Part shown: one piece after another, positions 51,513-64,000 of the stretch
How the letters are laid out: every line of letters begins with the position of its first letter
Numbering within the stretch: position 1 is the first letter of the stretch
Assembly: GCA_944391805.1 (NCBI GenBank)
Contig: CALXUY010000064.1
Location: 1 to 64,000 of the forward strand
DNA length: 64,000 bases
Source of the DNA: an uncultured Clostridia bacterium
Lineage (GTDB): Bacteria; Bacillota; Clostridia; Oscillospirales; CAG-272
Reading direction: 5' to 3'
The notes under the pieces: generated by a model
What the model was told of the DNA's origin: nothing
Seen by the model: the letters and a program-made list of their open reading frames with translations, nothing else
Databases searched by the model: none
Program-made: the position numbers and the translations under genes

Positions 51513-52460
51513 TCACGTACCTACCTTCGAGATGATTTTCTTAACCAGCATATTGGCTCCCATCATGATGGCAAACAGCACCACTGCGATGGCGGAGGAA
51601 TATCCGATTTCGTAACGCTGGTTGCCGTAGTCCTCCAAATGATGCATGATGGTATGTGCCGCATAATCCACCGACGGGAAGCCGCACAGCGCGGTTACAA
51701 CCGAGCCGAAGCCGAAGGTGTTGGTAATCGCCATGATCGCACCGAACATCAGCTGCGGCTTCATACTGGGCAGCGTGATATACCACAGCTCCTGCCAGCG
51801 GTTTTTCACACCGTCCACAGCACCGGCCTCGTACAGCGACCGGTCCACACCCTGCAAACCTGCAATAAAGGACAGGAAGGCCGTACCCAAGGAGGTCCAC
51901 AGCGCTACGATGATACACAGCGGCATGACATAGTCCGCATCCTGGAAGAAGGCGATCGGTTCACTGTAAAAGCCAAGCTCCATCATGGTAGCATTGACCC
52001 AGCCCTGTGCGTCCGCATCGAACAATGTGCCCCAGATCAGGTAAACCTGACCTGAAATGGACGGTGCGTAGAAAATCAGCGTCACCAGTGCACGGATCTT
52101 GGGGGAAAGTTCATTGATAAACCACGCGACAAGGAAAGACATCAGGTAGGATACCGGTCCCACAATGGCTGCGAAAATAAAGGTATTCTGGCAGGCAATC
52201 AGGAACACGTCATCCGCGAAGAACAGGTTGATATAGTTTTCCAGCCATACGACATTCGGCATCTGCAGCATATTGAAGTCGGTAAAGCTGATGATCATGG
52301 AAAGAAGTACCGGCGCCACCGTAAACAAAGTAAACACGATGACATACGGAGCGATCATCAGATATGCAACCCAGTTCCGCTTCATTTCTTTCCAGATCCA
52401 CTGCCGGTAGGTCAGGTCTTTTCTTGCTACGGCCTTGAGTTCTGCCGATTTGTTAGACAT
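51513..52460 (-). CDS. carbohydrate ABC transporter permease (MalF/UgpA-type), first pair
   Basis: A 315-residue six-helix permease. The EAA motif is RSLYEAGAVDGVKNRWQELW followed by YITLPSMKP. AAGGAG is nine bases before the ATG. It directly follows the giant solute-binding protein gene, which is the normal order for CUT1 sugar importers. Confidence 0.94.
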   Translation of the reverse strand: MSNKSAELKAVARKDLTYRQWIWKEMKRNWVAYLMIAPYVIVFTLFTVAPVLLSMIISFTDFNMLQMPNVVWLENYINLFFADDVFLIACQNTFIFAAIVGPVSYLMSFLVAWFINELSPKIRALVTLIFYAPSISGQVYLIWGTLFDADAQGWVNATMMELGFYSEPIAFFQDADYVMPLCIIVALWTSLGTAFLSFIAGLQGVDRSLYEAGAVDGVKNRWQELWYITLPSMKPQLMFGAIMAITNTFGFGSVVTALCGFPSVDYAAHTIMHHLEDYGNQRYEIGYSSAIAVVLFAIMMGANMLVKKIISKVGT

Positions 52461-52499: not shown

Positions 52500-55400
52500 T
52501 TAATAGGAAGCAAGTGCCTCTGCAATATCGGTCAGGCATTCGGAAATAAAGTACACCAGCTGCTGCTCGTTGAGCGAATCGATCCGGTATCCGCCAAACC
52601 TGGTTTCCGAGGTCTGTTTGCCTACATTGACATAATAGGTGGGAACCTCCGCCTGGCTGCCGTCCGCCTTGGTAATGGTCATTTTGCTGCCATCCCAATC
52701 GGCGGCCAGAATATCGGCAAACGCTTTTGCACTTTCCTCAAGCTGAGCAATGCGCTCATTTGCCACAGCATAGTTGGCTGCGAGAATCGCCGCATCGTAC
52801 TTGGTGCTGCCCTGAGTCAGCGCGCGAAGCGCCTCGATTGCAGTCTGAACCTGGCCGCTTCTCTTGGTAGCCAGGGTCTGTCCGATCTCCAGTGTCTCCA
52901 GCTTGAATTCTTCCCGCTTACGGGTAATCTCTGTGTTGATGATGTTGATGTAGCTCAACAGCTCCGTCGAGGGATCCGCATCGTCGTTATAGGCGGAGAG
53001 GAAAGCGAAGTTGGTGTAGCGGTCGATGATGTAGTAGCCGGGATAGTTGGGAATGGCTGCAAGATTTTCAAACTGCTTTGCCACCTCTACATACTCGTCG
53101 CGCGTCCAAGGCATACTCTCCAAGGCTTCTCTGTTCGCGGTTGCCTGCTTTGCAGAGTCACCGATGATGGCAACCATTTCGTTTGCGTACTCGGTCTGGC
53201 AGGGTGCGTCGGTATACCATTTGATAAAGCTCCATGCGTTGTCATAGTCGCCGTTGTTTTTCCGAATCAGAACGGCCGCCGTAGTGGTGGAAACCGAGGC
53301 GTTGTTGATGGTTCCGTCCTCCTGCTCATATCCGGGCAGCGGAACAAAGGTCCAGCAGTTATCCAGCTCGGTTGCAAACACCTTCAACTGATTGTAAAGC
53401 GCGGTATAGGCGGAAATGATAATGGGCATTTCGCCGGTGCGGAAGCGGTTTGCCGCGTCATACTTATACGGGAAAGAATACTGTGTGAACATGTTGCACA
53501 TGGTTTCAAAGGCTTCGAGACCAACCGAAGAATCCAGATTGATCCGCATTCCGCCATCCGCAAACAGCTCACCGCCCAACTGATAGAGGAAAATCTTGTA
53601 GTCGGTGGTCACACCGATCTCCATATTGTTGGATTCCAGCATGGACTGGGCAATGTAAATGTCCTCCCATGTCTTGGGAATTTCAATGCCGAGATTGACC
53701 AGGATATCGGTGCGCAGGAACATCATCGGGAAGGTTTGTGTTTCGGGCAGGCCGTAGTAATGCATATCCCCGTCCGAGTCCTCGGTGCCAAGCACCATCA
53801 TGGCAGCCTCGTTGAAGTTCTGCCGTGCCTCTTCAAAGCCCTCCATGTCCTCCACGTTCATCAAAGCGCCACGGATGGCGTAGTTGATTACGTCGGTCTG
53901 TCCCAGGCCAAGATAAGCATCCGGCCCCATTCCCGCAAGAATGGAAGGAAGCAGCGTTCCGGCGGTAATCAGCTTCAGGTCAACAGAAATCTGCGTATCA
54001 GGAGTGAACTCGTTGGTGCAGAGGTTACGGATCACCTGAGACTGGTCGCGCCCGTAAGCCAGCCAGACATCGATGGTATTGTTGGCGTCGCCGGAAGTGT
54101 CGGACGCCATAGCCCCCATGCTGTTGTAATCGCGGAAAAAGCTCATAATAAAGTTGGAGAACTCGTGAGCAACCGCACGGAAGAAATTGGCCTTTGCCTT
54201 GGGCGGCTCCACAGAAGCCCCCTGAATAGAAAGATAGTCGATTTGCAGCGGCTGCGTCTTTGCGTCGGTCAGGAAGGTACCAAGCGAACCGATGTAAGAC
54301 TTAAAGTTATCCAGATTCTTTGCGATCTGATCCTCATCCTTCCCCATCTTATCGAGCAGGTTGGAGAGCTTATCACAGATCCCCGTGTAGGAGGACGCCA
54401 CGCCGACCGCATCCGCCTTGAGGGTCGCGGACACCTGAGCCAGCGCCTGCCCCTGAATAATCATGTCGATCAGAGTGTCGTACAGCAGACGAGCAAAATT
54501 GTAATCACGGTAATCATCGGGCGAAGAACCGGTCAGCCGGATAATCTCCAGATAATCGTTGTTCAGTGAATCGAGAATGGTCTCGACCTCCCGGATCAAT
54601 GTGCTCATCGATCCGAGCGTCACTTCAAAATGCAGCGTATAAACCACGCCGGCCTCGAAGTAAAGCGGGAACGAGGTATCGGTACCCGGCTGATCGGACA
54701 GCGCCTTGACCTGCCAGCCGTTGGCATAGTCAAACCGCAGGCGGGTAGCCTCCTCAAAGGGAACGCCGTTGTAATAGCCGGCGCTGTTGCCCTTTGCGGC
54801 AACATATTCCTCCACGCTTTCATAACGGTCACCGTTCTCGTCGGCAGTATAAATCATCAGCATACGGCCGACATACATACCGTCAAGGTAGCTTTGCTTG
54901 AAGCGGGAGAAAATCTCATACATTCCGGAGGAATCCACCGAAAACTGATACTCGATCCATTGGCCTGAGGTTTCCCATTTTTCGGCGCCGATGGTGTTGA
55001 GCACGGTTCTCGAAGTGTCTACAGGGGAGGTCAGCGCATCCGAACGATCCTCAATCGGATACACAACATTGGTAGAGGTATTGGTGGTGTATTCGCCTTC
55101 AATCTTCACCACGCTCTGCCCCTCGGAAGGCTCTGCGCCAAGCGCATCCTTCACGCCCTGCAGGTACTGCTCATAGGTCTGGTACCCATCGTAGGGCTGC
55201 AGCACAATGGCGGAAAGCGCCACCGGCTCGTTGATGCCGCCCAGCGTCAGCTCAATCTTGCCGTTCTCATCGGGGGTCAGCACAAAGCCCAGCTCGTTGG
55301 CATAGTAGCCGCCGCTGTCCCGCATGGTGTAGCTCATCCACTCGGGCGACTGTACCATGGTGGGGCGCAGCTCGTTGTTCGTAAGGTCCGTCACAAAAAA

Positions 55401-56225
55401 CCGGATCTCATATGTATCAAGGAAGCTGCTGATTTTTTCGGTGATCACGCGCGGCTGTTCCACGAGCAGGGAGGACTGATCCTCGGAAAGATAAGCCGTC
55501 AGCCCGATCTCCTGCGCCTCTGCCATCACTGCGTTCAGTGCGGCCTCCAGACTGCCATGGGTCTTTTGCAGGCTTTTACCCGGAACAAAGACCGCCGTCA
55601 GAACCGTGCTTCCGTCCGCTTGATAGGACGCCCAACGCTTGGGAAGCGTAATCGAGCTGGCCTCCGAAAACGGAATTTCCCCATTGATAAAGAATTCCCG
55701 CTCGATCGAGGCGGTTTTGCTCGCCACCGGATAGTATTCCAGGGTGATATGATAAATCGCGGCCTCGGTCAGCCCGGAGGCTGCGAGATCCAGCGTCCAT
55801 GTCACCGACCCGACGGCCGGGGTGTAGATCGCCTCCTTACCGTCATAGGTCTGCAGGCGGACCAGCTCATCCAGGTCATAGCCAGCGGCCTCGGCCTCCG
55901 CCTCGCTGGAATAGACGTTCCCTTCCCTGTCGGTCAGGGTCCAGTTGCCGTCCTTCAGCTCGATGGTATCGCCGTCGCTGTTGGTGAACACCCAGTTCTC
56001 GGTCGCGTCAAATGAAACGGTTTTGTCCGCAGGGTCAACTCCGGCAAAATTCCGCGCCATGTAGTCTTCATAGGAGCTGGCGTTCAATGCGTCGATGTAG
56101 TCCGCAATCGTTTTGTCGGTTACACTGCTGCCGGCGTCCGCAGATACGGTCATCACGGCGCCGCTCACAAGAAACAGGAGCGCCAGCATCAGGCATGTGA
56201 TTCTTGTGAATTTCCTTTTCCCCAT
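52500..56225 (-). CDS. giant multidomain extracellular solute-binding protein
   Basis: A 1241-residue secreted protein; ordinary sugar-binding proteins have 400-450. After a signal peptide (FTRITCLMLALLFLVSGAVM) come two beta-sandwich, carbohydrate-binding-like modules (about 60-390 and 400-600; for example WIEYQFSVDSSGMYEIFSRF). A helical connector leads to a family 1 solute-binding domain (about 770-1130) with DAYLGLGQTDVINYAIRGAL, YYGLPETQTFPMMFLRTD and NAWSFIKWYTDAPCQTEYAN. A helical C-terminus completes it. No lipobox Cys is seen, so anchoring is unclear. AGGAGG lies eight bases before the ATG at 56225. It is the first gene of the operon. Confidence 0.85.
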   Translation of the reverse strand: MGKRKFTRITCLMLALLFLVSGAVMTVSADAGSSVTDKTIADYIDALNASSYEDYMARNFAGVDPADKTVSFDATENWVFTNSDGDTIELKDGNWTLTDREGNVYSSEAEAEAAGYDLDELVRLQTYDGKEAIYTPAVGSVTWTLDLAASGLTEAAIYHITLEYYPVASKTASIEREFFINGEIPFSEASSITLPKRWASYQADGSTVLTAVFVPGKSLQKTHGSLEAALNAVMAEAQEIGLTAYLSEDQSSLLVEQPRVITEKISSFLDTYEIRFFVTDLTNNELRPTMVQSPEWMSYTMRDSGGYYANELGFVLTPDENGKIELTLGGINEPVALSAIVLQPYDGYQTYEQYLQGVKDALGAEPSEGQSVVKIEGEYTTNTSTNVVYPIEDRSDALTSPVDTSRTVLNTIGAEKWETSGQWIEYQFSVDSSGMYEIFSRFKQSYLDGMYVGRMLMIYTADENGDRYESVEEYVAAKGNSAGYYNGVPFEEATRLRFDYANGWQVKALSDQPGTDTSFPLYFEAGVVYTLHFEVTLGSMSTLIREVETILDSLNNDYLEIIRLTGSSPDDYRDYNFARLLYDTLIDMIIQGQALAQVSATLKADAVGVASSYTGICDKLSNLLDKMGKDEDQIAKNLDNFKSYIGSLGTFLTDAKTQPLQIDYLSIQGASVEPPKAKANFFRAVAHEFSNFIMSFFRDYNSMGAMASDTSGDANNTIDVWLAYGRDQSQVIRNLCTNEFTPDTQISVDLKLITAGTLLPSILAGMGPDAYLGLGQTDVINYAIRGALMNVEDMEGFEEARQNFNEAAMMVLGTEDSDGDMHYYGLPETQTFPMMFLRTDILVNLGIEIPKTWEDIYIAQSMLESNNMEIGVTTDYKIFLYQLGGELFADGGMRINLDSSVGLEAFETMCNMFTQYSFPYKYDAANRFRTGEMPIIISAYTALYNQLKVFATELDNCWTFVPLPGYEQEDGTINNASVSTTTAAVLIRKNNGDYDNAWSFIKWYTDAPCQTEYANEMVAIIGDSAKQATANREALESMPWTRDEYVEVAKQFENLAAIPNYPGYYIIDRYTNFAFLSAYNDDADPSTELLSYINIINTEITRKREEFKLETLEIGQTLATKRSGQVQTAIEALRALTQGSTKYDAAILAANYAVANERIAQLEESAKAFADILAADWDGSKMTITKADGSQAEVPTYYVNVGKQTSETRFGGYRIDSLNEQQLVYFISECLTDIAEALASY

Positions 56226-56438
56226 TTGTGTTTCCTCCTGAAAAATCATTCCGGGCATAAGAACGGAAGGCTGCCGGAACGCCGCCTTCCTCCTGTCCCG
56301 CACAACACACGCGCCCTGCCTCCGACCGGTGAAGGCGGGAGCAATACGGCATGTTTTGCGCGGTTCGCAGGCAGAAAAATGTACGTTCCTTCCCCTGTTT
56401 TTGCAAACAAGGCGCACTTATGCCTTAAATACTACTAT

Positions 56439-57577: not shown

Positions 57578-57883
57578 CTACCCCTTCAGAAAACGGCGGC
57601 CCGGACGTTTTCTGGAGCAAAGACAGCCGGAGTAATCCTGCTGTGTCATCTGCACCAGAATCGTATCCTCCCCAATGCACTGTACCATACTCCATGGAAT
57701 CACAAGGTCATCCTCACCGCCAAAGCCGAGGAAGCCGGAACTGCCGCACACAATCAGGGCGAGCACGCGCGTGCAGTCTCCATTCACCTCAAATTCAAAA
57801 TCCCCCGCGTAGCCCAGCCGGGCACCGTCACAGACATTGACAATCTCCAGCTTCCGCAGGTCGGCCGTGCTGTATTTTTTCAT
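57578..57883 (-). CDS. YlmC/YmxH-family PRC-barrel protein
   Basis: A 101-residue protein with a single PRC-barrel: KYSTADLRKLEIVNVCDGAR, LGYAGDFEFEV and DDLVIPWSMVQCIGEDTILV. YlmC/YmxH proteins are small sporulation-associated proteins of Firmicutes with no defined mechanism. GGGAGG is seven bases before the ATG. The Cys-rich C-terminal tail (GCLCSRKRPGRRFLKG) is basic. It probably ends the transcript that starts at the Clp ATPase or upstream. Confidence 0.85.
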   Translation of the reverse strand: MKKYSTADLRKLEIVNVCDGARLGYAGDFEFEVNGDCTRVLALIVCGSSGFLGFGGEDDLVIPWSMVQCIGEDTILVQMTQQDYSGCLCSRKRPGRRFLKG

Positions 57884-57934: not shown

Positions 57935-60892
57935 TTATCTTCCAGGCTCGGAAAAGCGGGTAAAGAGAAGGACACTCAGCAAAACCAGAAAGGGACTGAC
58001 AACCAGCAGGCCGGCAGATGCGGCGCTCCAGCTCCCCAATTCGGTCACCGCGTCAACCGCCGGTACAAGCGCGGACAGCACAGCAGCGGCCAGCACCGGA
58101 AGCAGCAGCGGCAGCAGACAGGACATACAGCGCCCTGCCGACGGCAGTGTGATTCCGTCCGACTCCCGATTGAAAACCAGCAGCATCACCTGCATGAGCA
58201 GCATGGCGCAGAACAGCATCGGGTAAATACACTCGTCCGGTATCAGCCCGGTCAGACGGAGCACCGTGAGCAGCAAAGCCAACGCCCCTGCCGACGCCAA
58301 CGGGATCAGCCATAGCCGCCTGCTGCGGAAGGAGGCTCTGACGCTCTCGCTGCTCAGGGATACCGGCCGCAGGAGCCGCTCCTGCGATACCCCCGCCTGT
58401 GCAACCAGCGCAAAAGCCGCGAGATCAACAAACACCGAGGCATACAGAAACGCATAGGCAGTGACAGGACCTGCCCCGGTCAGCACACACAGGGTCAGAA
58501 GAACCACACGGAAGATCTGAAAGGAGGTCAGCATGTTCAACAGGCACTGCACACGCGCCAATGCCCCCCTCGTCCTGCGCAGCAAGCGAAGCAGCGCCGG
58601 CATTCCGCCGCCCGCGCTGTCGGCCCCCAGAAGCAGGAGATCCGCGTCCCGGAGCAGCACCTGCGGGCATCCGGCAGAAAATGCGGGGGCGGCGTCCCGT
58701 GCCAGTCCACCAATGTCGGGTTCAGCCTGTCCTGCGCTCGTATCAACCTGTCCGACAGTGCCGGTCTCCGCTCCGATCGGGGAGGCCTCACCGCCCAACG
58801 CGGCACCGTTCCCCTCTCCGGCAGAGCCGGGCATGCCGCCATTCGTTTCTCCCGCCATACCTGCGGCAGCCGCGGCATGGGGAATTTCATCCGGCAAGGT
58901 AACACCGCTGCCGGCTGACACGCCTGCCGACGGCCGGGACCGTCCTGCAGGCGGAGACATGTTCCCGGTCCCCGTCCCGGCACCGATTCCCGTGTCCCGC
59001 GCGCGCTCAATGGTCTGAACCGCCTCCGAATCGCAGGCAATGCGCAGAGACGCGGCGACAAGAATGCCCTCATCCTCCGGCGCTCCGGTCAGCACGGCCA
59101 CCGTTCTCCCCTGCCTGCGCAAATTTTTGACAAACTGCGTAATCTCCCGGCGACCATAGCCGGCAAACCAGCGTTCCCCGGCGCGCTCCACCGGATCCGG
59201 GTGCTCCGAGGCCAGACAAATCTGCTCCTCCCGTGCCCCGCACTGCACCGCGTAAAGCAGTTCCTCGCGTCTCTGTGAAGGGAAGAAAAAGCGAACCTGC
59301 ACACCGTGCGCCTCTAGCCGGCGCACGGTGTCGGCAATTCCGGGCAGCAATGCTTCCCGCCGAGTGACGCATCCCACCAAAAGCGTGCGTCCGCCCTGCT
59401 CCTTTGTCACGGTCAGAACCGGGCTTCCCTGCCCGGCGGCCTCCTGTGCAAAGCGGCGCAGACGCTCCCGCATGGCCGGTTCGAGCGGCGCATGGCCCCC
59501 CAGCATGCTTTCATAGCCGACGCAGCCCGAGACGGCTCCGATTCCTGTGGTAAACCGCAGGCGGAAGTCGGTCTCCTTCATCCGCACCTCCAAGAGCTGC
59601 TCCTGCGCCGTGGAATGCAGCACAGCGCCCACAAGCCGCACCTCCAGTGCCTGCAGGTCATATCCGCTGATTGCAGTCAGCTCATACGGCAGAGGCAGAA
59701 AGCGGTCCTCCTCCGGAGCGCCCTGCTGCGGCAGACGCTCGCGTGCACGAAACAGCAGCACAAACGCCTCGCACAGCGGCTGCAAGCCGGGCTGCTGCCC
59801 GGTGGTATCCGACAAAAAGGTCTGCGCCCCGTTGGAGGCGCTGTGAAAATGACAGAGCCCATCCGAAGTGGCGCTATGATCCAGGATGACAAGATCGGTC
59901 AGGTAGGGGAGACGGTCCATGCCCCGGTCGGTTTTGACAACCGCCCCAGATCTGCCCGGAAAATACAGCATGATGTGAAACAGGATGTAGGGCACCGCCG
60001 CCGTTCCCGAGGCGGTCAGCGCACACAGCGGCAGAAAAACGCGCAGCGTGCTCAGGCTCTCCGGAGAGATCAGCAGCCCAACAACGCTCAGGGGCAGCAT
60101 CAGCACCAGCAATGCAAAGCCGAACAGACGCAGATACGGATAAATGCCCGAGAGCAGACTGCCCTGCCCGGACAAAGGCTCCCGCAGCAGCGTCCGCCCC
60201 ATTGCGCCAAGAAAGCTGTGCGTACCGGTTTCGGTCACAACAGCACGCGCACTGCCGGCCACCACCTCCGCACCGCCGTAGACGAGATTTTCATAGTCCG
60301 GCGCGTTCAGCTTTGCTCCATAGGGATAAACCGTTTGCGCCTGTTTTTCCTGCAGGAGCACGGTCGGTCGCTCGCCGGACGCGGCCGGAAGAACCAGCCG
60401 GGTGCGCAGCCCCGCGGCGTCCAGCAGCCGGCAGTCGGCCGGAATCACATCCCCCGCGCGCAGCAAAACAACGTCGCCCGGCACCAGCACCCGTGCGGAA
60501 ACCCGCATCGGCTTTCCGTCCCGCAGTACGCAGGCCCGCGGGATCTGGCTTTCCCGCAGACGGTCCCGCCTCCGCCGCATCCGAAGCACCATGCACAGCA
60601 GCAGAAGATACCACACGGCATAGAGCACCAGTGCCGGAATGCCGACCGCAAACTCGGCAAAGCAGACGGTCAGCAGACAGACTGCCGCAAAAAGCAGCAG
60701 GGAGGGATCGGTCAGAAGCATCCGCAGCAGCGCAAAGGAGGAGCGATTGAACTCGAACAGATCATTGCTACCTCCCTTGCGCAGACGAGAACGAGCCTCC
60801 TTGCGGGAGAGCCCGCAGGAGGCGTTGCTGCGAAGCTGGCGGAGGGCTTCCTCCCCCGTCAGCTGATGCCATTTGATGTTCCGGTTTTCCAT
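57935..60892 (-). CDS. P-type ATPase-like membrane protein lacking the catalytic motifs
   Basis: A 985-residue protein with P-type ATPase architecture: an N-terminal cation-ATPase segment (WHQLTGEEALRQLRSNASCG), helices M1-M2, an A-domain (RVLVPGDVVLLRAGDVIPAD), M3-M4, a P/N region and about six C-terminal helices. The invariant DKTGT is replaced by DHSAT (338-342), the dephosphorylation motif TGES by ASGER, the PEGL-type helix by ASGTAAVP, and no GDGxND is present. A Gly/Ala/Ser-rich insert of about 100 residues sits where the hinge should be. It cannot be a normal ion pump and is probably a pseudoenzyme. No good ribosome binding site precedes the ATG, 14 bases after the Clp gene, suggesting coupling. 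Confidence 0.75.
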   Translation of the reverse strand: MENRNIKWHQLTGEEALRQLRSNASCGLSRKEARSRLRKGGSNDLFEFNRSSFALLRMLLTDPSLLLFAAVCLLTVCFAEFAVGIPALVLYAVWYLLLLCMVLRMRRRRDRLRESQIPRACVLRDGKPMRVSARVLVPGDVVLLRAGDVIPADCRLLDAAGLRTRLVLPAASGERPTVLLQEKQAQTVYPYGAKLNAPDYENLVYGGAEVVAGSARAVVTETGTHSFLGAMGRTLLREPLSGQGSLLSGIYPYLRLFGFALLVLMLPLSVVGLLISPESLSTLRVFLPLCALTASGTAAVPYILFHIMLYFPGRSGAVVKTDRGMDRLPYLTDLVILDHSATSDGLCHFHSASNGAQTFLSDTTGQQPGLQPLCEAFVLLFRARERLPQQGAPEEDRFLPLPYELTAISGYDLQALEVRLVGAVLHSTAQEQLLEVRMKETDFRLRFTTGIGAVSGCVGYESMLGGHAPLEPAMRERLRRFAQEAAGQGSPVLTVTKEQGGRTLLVGCVTRREALLPGIADTVRRLEAHGVQVRFFFPSQRREELLYAVQCGAREEQICLASEHPDPVERAGERWFAGYGRREITQFVKNLRRQGRTVAVLTGAPEDEGILVAASLRIACDSEAVQTIERARDTGIGAGTGTGNMSPPAGRSRPSAGVSAGSGVTLPDEIPHAAAAAGMAGETNGGMPGSAGEGNGAALGGEASPIGAETGTVGQVDTSAGQAEPDIGGLARDAAPAFSAGCPQVLLRDADLLLLGADSAGGGMPALLRLLRRTRGALARVQCLLNMLTSFQIFRVVLLTLCVLTGAGPVTAYAFLYASVFVDLAAFALVAQAGVSQERLLRPVSLSSESVRASFRSRRLWLIPLASAGALALLLTVLRLTGLIPDECIYPMLFCAMLLMQVMLLVFNRESDGITLPSAGRCMSCLLPLLLPVLAAAVLSALVPAVDAVTELGSWSAASAGLLVVSPFLVLLSVLLFTRFSEPGR

Positions 60893-60906: not shown

Positions 60907-63228
60907 TTACAGACAGGTGATGAGAAGGCTCTCTCCGTCCGCGTCGATCGAAGCGGCCGTGTAGCTTCTCTGATAATTGGAGATGATCTGCTCGGCCAGC
61001 GGGTCCTCCACCTCCCGCTGAATATAGCGGCGCATATTGCGCGCGCCGTACTTCTGGGAGAAGGATTTGCGCGCAATCAAAGCCACCGCAGCGTCGGTGT
61101 AGGTCAGCACAATCCGTTTCTCGGCCAGCGCCTGCTTCAGCTCGCCCAGCATAATTTCGGCAATTTTGCAGAAATCCTCCTCGGAGAGCGAGCGGAAGGT
61201 GATGATTTCATCCACACGGTTGAGGAACTCCGGCCGCAGGAAGGCGGAGAGCGCCTTCTGCGTTTTGCTGTCGCCCGAGGCCTTGGAGTCCGCCGAGAAG
61301 CCTGCCAGCGCGGCCGAACGGTCCGAGCCGGCGTTGGTGGTCATCACAATAATGGTGTTCTCAAAATTGACGGTTTTGCCCCGCGCGTCGGTGATCCTGC
61401 CGTCGTCCAGAATCTGCAAAAGGACGTTGAGCACATCCGGGTGCGCCTTTTCAATCTCGTCGAACAGCACGATGGAATAGGGCCTGCGGCGGATTTTTTC
61501 GGTGAGCTGCCCGGCCTCGTCGTAGCCGACATATCCCGGAGGCGCTCCGATGAGCCTGGAGACCGAATGCTTCTCCATGAATTCCGACATATCCAGACGG
61601 ATCAGGGTTTCGGGCGAATGGAACAGGTCGTTTGCCAGCGTTTTGACCAGCTCGGTTTTCCCCACGCCGGTGGGGCCGGCGAAAATGAAGGAAACCGGCT
61701 TTCTCTTATAGGAAATTCCCGCCCGGTTGCGCTTGATGGCGCGGGACACCGCCGACACGGCCTCATCCTGCCCGACAATGCGCTGGCGCAGGCGGCTCTC
61801 GAGCTGGTCGATCTGCTCAAACTCGTTTTCGGTGATGCTGGTGGCCGGAACTCCGGTCCAGAGCTCGATGACGTCGGCGATCTCGTTTTCGGTCATGACA
61901 ATCGCCTTGGTGTCCGGCTCCAGCTCGTCAAGGCGCTCGGCCAGACGCAGCTCCTCGGAGCGCAGCTTGGTGATCTCCTCATAGCGGTTCTGCTCCACCG
62001 CTTCGTTTCCGGCGATTTCGGACTCCAGCTCCTCCCGACGCTGCCGCAGCTCCAGCAGATGGTCGCGGATGGAATAGCTCTCGTTGAGCGCAGCCGACGA
62101 GAGAGACAGGTGCGAAGCCGCCTCGTCGAGCAGATCGATCGCCTTGTCCGGCAAAAACCGGTCGGTGATATAGCGCTCGGAGAGCACCACCGCGCGCCGC
62201 AGGAGCTCATCCGGAATGATAACGCCGTGAAACTCCTCGTAATAGTGCTTGATGCCCTGCAGCATTTCCACCGTGTCGTCGATGCTCGGCTCGTTGACCA
62301 TGACAGGCTGGAAGCGGCGTTCGAGCGCGGTATCCTTTTCAATATATTTGCGGTATTCGGTCAGGGTGGTTGCACCGATGACCTGCACCTCCCCACGCGA
62401 GAGCGCGGGCTTGAGGATGTTTGCGGCATTGACGCTGCCCTCGGCATCGCCGGTGCCCACAATGTTGTGCACCTCGTCGATGACCAGAATGGCGTTGCCC
62501 ACCGCCTGCACCTCGGCAAGCAGACCGAGAATGCGGGACTCAAACTGCCCCCGGAACTGGGTTCCCGCCACCAGCGCCGTCATGTCGACCAGATATATCT
62601 CCTTGCCCTTCAGCTTATACGGGACGTTTCCCGCCGCAATGCGGATGGCAAGAGCCTCGGCAATCGCGGTCTTTCCCACGCCCGGCTCACCGATCAGACA
62701 GGGATTGTTCTTCTGACGGCGGCAGAGAATCTGCACCACGCGGGAGAGCTCCCGGTCGCGGCCGATGATATTGTCGAGCTTTCCTTCCCGTGCGAACTGG
62801 GTCAGATTGCGGCAGTAGGTGGTGAGAAATTTGAGCTTTTTTTCTTCCTTCGCCTTTTTTCTGCCGTTCCGGTCCTTTTTGCCCGGCTCCTCCGGGGTCG
62901 GCGTGCCGGCATTCTCTGCCGGGGCAAGCCCTGCCTCCCGGAAGAGCTTGGGAATATCGATGGCGGGCGCACCGCCGTCGGCGTTATCGTCGTTGTCGGA
63001 GGGAGGCTGAAGCTGACCGAGCATAGCGGTCAGATCCTCCTCTGCGCTTTCGAGCTGCTCTTGGGAGATGCCGAGCTGATCGATCACGTTGCCCACGATG
63101 TTATCAATCGGAACCCCGAACTCCTTTGCGCATTTCATGCAGAAGCCGCGGGTCTCCTTTTCCCCGTTCCCCTGACGGGTCATAAAAACCACCGCCACGC
63201 GCTTGTGGCATTTCGAACACATGGTCAT
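60907..63228 (-). CDS. Clp-family AAA+ ATPase (ClpC/ClpA-like) with N-terminal zinc ribbon
   Basis: A 773-residue double-ring AAA+ unfoldase. In place of the Clp_N repeats it has a C4 zinc ribbon (CSKC at 4-7 and CMKC at 30-33) like McsA, followed by an acidic Pro-rich linker. D1 has Walker A GEPGVGKT near residue 180 and ILVIDEVHNIVGTG; a short middle coiled coil follows. D2 has GPTGVGKTELVKTL, SIVLFDEIEKAHPDV and the sensor region RPEFLNRVDEI. A clear VGF-type ClpP loop is not obvious (the nearest is ALAGF). The start at 63228 is preceded by GGAG; ATG at 63222 is an alternative. Confidence 0.88.
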   Translation of the reverse strand: MTMCSKCHKRVAVVFMTRQGNGEKETRGFCMKCAKEFGVPIDNIVGNVIDQLGISQEQLESAEEDLTAMLGQLQPPSDNDDNADGGAPAIDIPKLFREAGLAPAENAGTPTPEEPGKKDRNGRKKAKEEKKLKFLTTYCRNLTQFAREGKLDNIIGRDRELSRVVQILCRRQKNNPCLIGEPGVGKTAIAEALAIRIAAGNVPYKLKGKEIYLVDMTALVAGTQFRGQFESRILGLLAEVQAVGNAILVIDEVHNIVGTGDAEGSVNAANILKPALSRGEVQVIGATTLTEYRKYIEKDTALERRFQPVMVNEPSIDDTVEMLQGIKHYYEEFHGVIIPDELLRRAVVLSERYITDRFLPDKAIDLLDEAASHLSLSSAALNESYSIRDHLLELRQRREELESEIAGNEAVEQNRYEEITKLRSEELRLAERLDELEPDTKAIVMTENEIADVIELWTGVPATSITENEFEQIDQLESRLRQRIVGQDEAVSAVSRAIKRNRAGISYKRKPVSFIFAGPTGVGKTELVKTLANDLFHSPETLIRLDMSEFMEKHSVSRLIGAPPGYVGYDEAGQLTEKIRRRPYSIVLFDEIEKAHPDVLNVLLQILDDGRITDARGKTVNFENTIIVMTTNAGSDRSAALAGFSADSKASGDSKTQKALSAFLRPEFLNRVDEIITFRSLSEEDFCKIAEIMLGELKQALAEKRIVLTYTDAAVALIARKSFSQKYGARNMRRYIQREVEDPLAEQIISNYQRSYTAASIDADGESLLITCL

Positions 63229-63329: not shown

Positions 63330-64000
63330 TCAATTCTGCTGAAGGCCATTGATCCATTCGCTGACATTGAGCATCTTGATCCCGTTGAAATCCCCGAAGA
63401 ATTTGACAACGGCAGACTCGGTATAAAGCTCGCTGTTGCCGAAGAACACCTTCAGCAGCGAGCCGACCACCAGCAGGAGCATCCATGCCAGTGCCAATCC
63501 CAGCACACCGCCCATGATGCTGTCGGCGACGCCGATAATCGGAATTTTATCTTTGAAATGTTTGACAAACACATAGACAATGGTCAGTGCCAGGAAGGCC
63601 AGCAGGAACACTGCAAGGAAACCCAGCACCGAGCAAACAACCGAAGAAAGCGCCCCCGCCACCGTATCGGTGATCGAGTTGACCAGCTCCTCCCCGCTGC
63701 CGCCAAGCGATTGCAGCTGCGCACGCAGGCTGTCGGTCAGCAGAAAATCCGGGACCGCCTCCATGGCGCTCTCCACATCAAAGCTCCCCGCGGTGTTCAG
63801 ATAAATTTCATTGACCTTGCCAAACACCGAGCTGCGGATGGGCGCGTTGAGAAATTTTTCCCCAAGGAAGTTTCCAAACGCACCGCCCCAGAGATATGCC
63901 GCGCCAAACGCGAGAAACAGCTTGAAAAACTTGAGTAAGGTGAGAAAGAACCCGCGCTTGGCACAGATGGCAATAATCAGAACTCCAACCGCGACAAACA
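63330..64000 (-). CDS. cvpA: CvpA-family membrane protein, N-terminus outside the window
   Basis: At least 222 residues are visible. The frame continues without interruption to the window edge (FVAVGVLIIAICAKRGFFLT), so the true start lies beyond 64000 and an internal GTG at 63827 is not the start. Four hydrophobic segments are present, including VVCSVLGFLAVFLLAFLALT and IMGGVLGLALAWMLLLVVGS, with the conserved IPIIGVADSIMGG that marks the CvpA family (colicin V production/cell-envelope proteins). In Clostridia it often precedes mutS2-type or stress genes; here it precedes the Clp ATPase. Confidence 0.82.
   Translation of the reverse strand, partial: FVAVGVLIIAICAKRGFFLTLLKFFKLFLAFGAAYLWGGAFGNFLGEKFLNAPIRSSVFGKVNEIYLNTAGSFDVESAMEAVPDFLLTDSLRAQLQSLGGSGEELVNSITDTVAGALSSVVCSVLGFLAVFLLAFLALTIVYVFVKHFKDKIPIIGVADSIMGGVLGLALAWMLLLVVGSLLKVFFGNSELYTESAVVKFFGDFNGIKMLNVSEWINGLQQN

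Follow-up and report, generated by a model that had tools for sequence, protein, structure and literature searches.

The window, the whole 64,000-nucleotide stretch of DNA that was analysed, carries on its minus strand a run of genes transcribed in the order CvpA-like gene, clp, pseudo-pump gene and ylmC. These genes, with one motif of the Clp protein, are located as follows.

63330–63827, minus strand: gene for a CvpA-like membrane protein, transcribed ahead of clp (PF02674, 34 bits; cut-off 29.3)
60907–63228, minus strand: Hsp100/Clp ATPase gene with two AAA modules, the upstream partner of the pseudo-pump gene
63130–63219, minus strand: N-terminal Cys4 motif of the Clp protein (CSKC...CMKC, zinc-finger-like), read in the translation
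57935–60892, minus strand: pseudo-P-type ATPase (pseudo-pump) gene, with an open frame, E1-E2_ATPase and Cation_ATPase_N matches, an AlphaFold model and a full-length structural match
57578–57883, minus strand: YlmC/YmxH-type PRC-barrel gene (TIGR02888, 62.6 bits; cut-off 44.2)

The preliminary description of this DNA had reported an intact frame of 985 codons flanked by genes for a Clp ATPase and a sporulation-type PRC-barrel protein. Indeed, the frame is uninterrupted from the ATG at 60892 to the stop at 57935, on the minus strand, and both neighbours had been identified correctly. Only 14 bases separate the Clp stop codon from the pseudo-pump ATG. The Clp start is likely Met87 of the listed open reading frame, which extends to 63486.

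In Pfam searches the window protein was matched only by Cation_ATPase_N (E 1.1e-06) and E1-E2_ATPase (E 3.3e-18), and the hydrolase (HAD) domain was not found. NCBIfam models of Mg2+ and Ca2+ pumps matched its first 270 residues at about 70 bits, against cut-offs of 600–800, and alignments to the nearest solved relatives, the Listeria Ca2+-ATPase LMCA1 and SERCA, spanned residues 9–308. Among 27 members of the pseudo-pump group, the A domain (PF00122) was detected in all and the N-terminal domain (PF00690) in 21.

P-type ATPases are defined by an aspartate that is phosphorylated in each transport cycle. The positions of this and the other signature motifs were read by alignment with ordinary pumps of the same bacteria, and the features of the window protein are listed below.

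60173–60547, minus strand: actuator (A) domain, residues 116–240, the best-kept cytosolic domain; VPGD, GD, PAD-R, K183 and G213 retained, TGES lost
60368–60379, minus strand: SGER (172–175), aligned with TGES of the pumps
59990–60001, minus strand: AAVP (298–301), aligned with PEGL in M4 of the pumps
59858–59884, minus strand: LDHSATSDG (337–345), the phosphorylation loop by ungapped alignment, with Asp338 at the Lys position
59072–59089, minus strand: TGAPED (602–607), aligned with GDGxND of the pumps
58676–58990, minus strand: Gly/Ala-rich low-complexity linker, about residues 635–739; pLDDT below 50 and far shorter in homologues
58508–58519, minus strand: QIFR in M5 (Gln792, Arg795), with Arg at the position of SERCA Glu771 and AHA2 Arg655
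58424–58426, minus strand: Asp823 in M6, at the position of SERCA Asp800 and AHA2 Asp684

The phosphorylation loop had been described as DHSAT in place of DKTGT. The loop is altered and DKTGT is lost, but that reading was out of register by one residue, the catalytic Asp position being taken by Leu337. Retention of the Asp of DHSAT as the catalytic residue was ruled out by the ungapped alignment and by variation at position 338, which is Gly or Lys in most of the 72 aligned homologues. None of the 72 distinct homologues had Asp at the phosphorylation site (Pro in 20, Leu in 17, Ile in 11 and Val in 10, among others), GDGxND was absent from all 72, and a Glu at the third position of the TGES loop was found in only seven. 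The alterations proposed for TGES, PEGL and GDGxND were borne out by the alignment. The window protein also lacks KGA, DPPR and, in its P domain, the PxxK lysine. Canonical motifs were looked for elsewhere in the protein, by alignment and by pattern search, and none was found. A DKTGT-type motif was present in 95 canonical relatives, none of which had undergone the motif loss. (A row for a 'TGD' motif was left out, having aligned to the wrong place in the reference.) The window gene very probably encodes a catalytically dead P-type ATPase pseudoenzyme.

The low-complexity insert comprises 105 residues of simple sequence and was disordered in the AlphaFold model of the window protein. It had been thought to replace the hinge. 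The alignment instead placed it after the GDGxND site, in a linker that is much shorter in the nearest orthologue (59% identity to the window protein), and it is best read as a lineage-specific expansion of that short linker, peculiar to the window lineage.

The AlphaFold model of the window protein (pLDDT 79, pTM 0.78) was matched to P-type pumps over 666 residues (Z 28.2, rmsd 7.7, 11% identity), and that of a distant member (pLDDT 81, pTM 0.77) over 819 residues (Z 35.4, rmsd 8.8, 21% identity). The fold order and membrane layout of cation P-type ATPases, recognised at the outset from the letters, were reproduced by the full-length match of the window model. According to these models the P-type fold, with its A, P and N domains and membrane helices, is kept over its full length in two sub-clades. 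Many of the top structural matches were E1 states, which hints that the resting shape of the pseudo-pump may be E1-like.

The 72 distinct pseudo-pump proteins compared were each at least 780 amino acids long and shared a mean identity of about 22%. With a profile built on the window group, no dead protein scored below 224 bits and no live one above 196, a gap that applies to the main family only, since four divergent copies (those of families f17 and f20 and one without an N domain) scored 95–167 bits. In phylogenetic trees the pseudo-pumps fell on one side of a branch with an SH-aLRT support of 100 and a stem of 0.7–0.9 changes per site, and this single clade held when the divergent f17 and f20 copies and a 684-residue copy lacking the N domain were added. 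The trees were quick ones (LG+G4, no mixture model), and their long branches leave the inner order of the divergent members unsure. Independent decay of different pumps was not supported, the pseudo-pumps forming one clade.

A search for orthologues with the same substitutions had been suggested. Orthologues with equivalent losses were found in 15 of the 35 genus genomes and, in the family, in at least 98 of the 246 genomes sampled (36 of 71 genera), all without the motifs. These counts are lower bounds, as the profile used (A1) misses divergent members (f17, f20 and G078). On a sample of the class, the same narrow profile recovered no member outside the source genome itself. A class-wide search with a broader profile (A3) was discarded; it returned mostly ordinary pumps, and every one of its 29 top-scoring foreign loci was canonical. 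Homologues were also present on named contigs labelled Clostridia or Oscillospiraceae, the main sources being deer, sheep, goat, water buffalo and rabbit gut metagenomes.

Several of the divergent copies lie beside clp. The copy of 684 residues (L275 in genome G078, open reading frame 118–2184 of the reverse complement) stands behind Clp and has nearly lost its N domain, of which 13 of about 150 residues align, while the A domain and the membrane part are retained. Three very divergent pseudo-pumps (L272, L273 and L274) directly follow Clp in f17 and f20, which are separate families of the same order, and were missed by the profile search of the order. The pseudo-pump of genome G029 (L215/L017) is split over two contigs and was left out as a full sequence.

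Seven pairs of pseudo-pumps with at least 90% identity gave dN/dS values of 0.04–0.12 over 895–953 codons, and the dead P and N region gave 0.03–0.11 in five pairs that did not involve the window copy. The comparison of the window copy with its nearest relative (59% identity) gave 0.38, whereas the Clp neighbours gave 0.09. The window copy is under weaker constraint than the family and than its own Clp neighbour, although its ratio is still below 1. With this looser value for the window copy, the measurements upheld the preliminary claim that the gene is maintained; a lack of orthologues together with relaxed selection, the signature expected of a decaying gene, was looked for and not found. 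Sequencing error or a pseudogene was ruled out by the 72 intact homologues and the low dN/dS. That the pseudo-pumps constitute a monophyletic family of dead type II P-type ATPases kept by selection is strongly supported by these comparisons of sequences.

Conservation was distributed differently in this family. Relative to canonical pumps, the mean pairwise identity of pseudo-pumps was 1.02 in the N-terminal segment, 0.71 in the A domain and 0.36–0.40 in the P domain. Residues new to the clade were R795, a Gly at 819 and the GG at 762–763. An Arg in M5 was found in 63 of the 72 homologues, where all canonical pumps compared have Glu, and in M6 the position of SERCA Asn796 was Gly in 61. The alignments indicate a shift of conservation away from the P domain, towards the actuator domain and a newly arisen pair, M5 Arg and M6 Asp, which is absent from the most divergent members (f17, f20 and the copy without an N domain). 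In the plant plasma-membrane H+-ATPase AHA2 (P3A), Arg655 and Asp684 correspond to SERCA Glu771 and Asp800 and have been termed a built-in counter-ion (PMC5387105), and a comparable salt bridge, Lys791–Glu820, occurs in the gastric H,K-ATPase (PMC8481561). The pseudo-pumps have this pair in common with AHA2 but lack its catalytic machinery, and their best sequence matches are Ca2+ and Mg2+ pumps, not P3A members. With the P2A Ca2+-ATPases (SPCA1, LMCA1 and SERCA) and the P3B pump MgtA they share the full-length fold, the domain order and the core signatures of the A domain; they differ from these in lacking the phosphorylatable Asp, TGES, KGA, DPPR and GDGxND, and most ion ligands are replaced.

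The gene upstream encodes a protein with intact Walker A and B motifs in both AAA modules and a ClpP-docking loop of the form TNAG...(A/L)GF (AGF in the window). It scored below every NCBIfam Clp equivalog cut-off and may be ClpE-like, judging by its Cys4 N-terminus. From these motifs the partner is predicted to be an active, ClpP-docking Hsp100/Clp unfoldase. The 72 pseudo-pump loci comprised 68 with Clp directly upstream, one cut by the end of the stretch and three with other genes there. The link to Clp suggested by the preliminary description was thus present at 68 of 71 testable loci, a far stronger association than one window could show. The Clp stop and the earliest possible pseudo-pump start were a median of 20 bases apart and lay within 30 bases of each other at 45 of 67 loci, with six overlaps. 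Adjacency persisted down to about 20% protein identity, in three families of the order, and the upstream position of the CvpA-like gene was also conserved across the order. The pseudo-pumps without Clp upstream were L091, L196 and L200, of which L091 keeps YlmC downstream.

The Clp gene was present in all 35 genomes of the genus and in 56 of 59 of the order. In nearly all cases, genus members without a pseudo-pump had YlmC directly after Clp, and on the Clp tree of the genus the presence of the pseudo-pump required at least four to five changes, a pattern that points to its clean loss several times from between clp and ylmC. Because Clp persists where the pseudo-pump has been lost, the latter can be regarded as an optional part of a fixed Clp operon. 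A scan of the operon for sigma-70 promoters and terminators gave results near chance level. In two genomes, G021 (L239/L280) and G011 (L281), a different open reading frame of about 215 amino acids was found after Clp at the usual place of the pseudo-pump. The one in G021 starts MTEKEKMHTGELYLPQDGEIVGWQ and is maltose-acetyltransferase-like by eye.

We infer a regulatory or structural role for the pseudo-pump. The reading favoured here, with a probability of about 0.4, is that it does not pump but serves the Clp unfoldase encoded beside it as a platform or adaptor in the membrane, a role deduced mainly from sequence and gene adjacency. It is favoured because the motifs are lost, the body is under selection, the Clp neighbour is near-invariant and cytosolic surfaces near the membrane are conserved. 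Under this model the pseudo-pump would form no aspartyl-phosphate and would not pump. Within the membrane it would adopt an E1-like shape, and an Arg(M5)–Asp(M6) ion pair inside the protein would stabilise that shape in place of the transported cation. The N-terminal segment and actuator domain would provide a docking face that recruits the Clp unfoldase or, alternatively, presents membrane-protein substrates to it, and the pseudo-pump would act as an optional component of the Clp system.

A precedent is provided by YqgP–FtsH, in which a bacterial polytopic membrane protein acts as a substrate adaptor for an AAA protease, a function that does not depend on its own catalysis (PMC7231995). Together with the rhomboid pseudoproteases (Derlins, cited in PMC7231995), it would follow the same logic as that proposed for the pseudo-pump, although the pseudo-pump fold is unrelated and its partner is a Clp unfoldase. 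By analogy, the pseudo-pumps might tentatively be viewed as a new class of membrane adaptors that bring a soluble, ClpP-linked unfoldase to the membrane for extraction or degradation of membrane proteins. Against a Clp adaptor stands the near-universal presence of Clp in an order in which most genomes lack the pseudo-pump, so that Clp does not depend on it. The three loci without Clp, the missing M5/M6 pair in the most divergent members and the weak constraint on the window copy also count against an adaptor, and the adjacency of the two genes may reflect shared regulation only.

An ion or pH sensor or a gated leak is an unlikely alternative. Protons or cations bound at the M4 Glu and M6 Asp would move the actuator domain, or ions would pass passively, and Clp would act in downstream signalling or turnover. 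The M4 Glu is kept in 47 of the 72 homologues and an Asp or Glu at the position of SERCA Asp800 in 66, and the M5 Arg and M6 Asp correspond to the proton site of AHA2; however, the M4 Glu is mostly lost in the window genus, the cation ligands SERCA N768/E771/N796 have become Q/R/G, and an Arg next to the Asp would be expected to keep cations out.

The gene on the other side of the pseudo-pump bears on a less probable explanation, a sporulation-specific component within a YlmC/YmxH programme (mother-cell sigma-E), in which the pseudo-pump would be a structural protein of the forespore or mother-cell membrane. In Clostridium perfringens the number of spores is affected by ylmC. The expression of this gene is confined to sporulation and depends on sigma-E, both there and in Bacillus subtilis (PMC9332280). 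YlmC/YmxH follows the pseudo-pump in the window and in 43 of 63 loci, with varying genes elsewhere, so that the proposed link to the PRC-barrel protein stood for these loci but not for the rest of the family, about one-third of which has no YlmC downstream. spoIVA was found in 30 of the 35 genus genomes, the source genome included, but many relatives with spoIVA have no pseudo-pump. Sporulation as the sole explanation was rejected, as spoIVA occurs in most relatives both with and without the pseudo-pump. A sporulation context is possible, but the pairing with YlmC does not hold across the whole family, and sporulating relatives can do without the pseudo-pump.

Pseudoenzymes commonly regulate their active relatives. 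The source genome encodes, besides its one pseudo-pump, two canonical relatives (L002 and L003), with which the pseudo-pump could form a hetero-oligomer as a regulatory subunit, Clp degrading or remodelling the assembly. No pump gene was linked to the pseudo-pump at any locus examined, however, and this explanation is considered improbable. Lower still is the probability that the window lineage carries a decaying, weakly constrained pump gene hitch-hiking in a needed operon. Such decay would account for the raised dN/dS relative to Clp, the simple-sequence insert and the repeated losses in the genus, but it is disfavoured by the family data: 72 intact frames at about 22% identity, low dN/dS elsewhere and new clade-specific residues. 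An ATP-driven transporter with a different nucleophile or coupling, which the overall fold and the retention of most of the N domain might suggest, is very improbable given that the phosphorylation position holds no conserved nucleophile, that KGA, DPPR, TGES and GDGxND are lost jointly and that one member (L275) has no N domain.

No family of dead P-type ATPases was found in the literature (open-licence PMC papers). A term search in a 2023 review of unsolved problems in P-type ATPase research brought up no such family, and a pseudoenzyme review does not mention ATPase, ion pump or transporter. The pseudo-pump family appears to be undescribed, although absence from the literature is no proof. 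The recently recognised bacterial P6 ATPase CtpE also has an altered M6 ligand (PMC10654040), but it retains PEGL and actively pumps Ca2+ into the cell, whereas in the pseudo-pumps catalysis is lost and the M6 Asp retained.

A large, selected family that has lost its engine and kept its body would show which functions the P-type scaffold can serve other than pumping. Clp, as its near-fixed neighbour, is a concrete and testable partner, and through it one could learn how Clp proteolysis is directed to the membrane in Gram-positive gut bacteria; a Clp adaptor, if confirmed, would be the P-type counterpart of the rhomboid pseudoproteases. Going by the A domain alone, annotation can readily mistake pseudo-pump genes for those of cation pumps, and the ion-transport capacity of gut Clostridia would be misstated as a result.

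Elsewhere in the window, an open reading frame of 1305 amino acids (52500–56417, minus strand) adjoins an ABC permease gene (51513–52460). Pfam gave no domain for it at E ≤ 0.001, and it resembles a sugar-binding protein that is greatly extended at its N-terminus.
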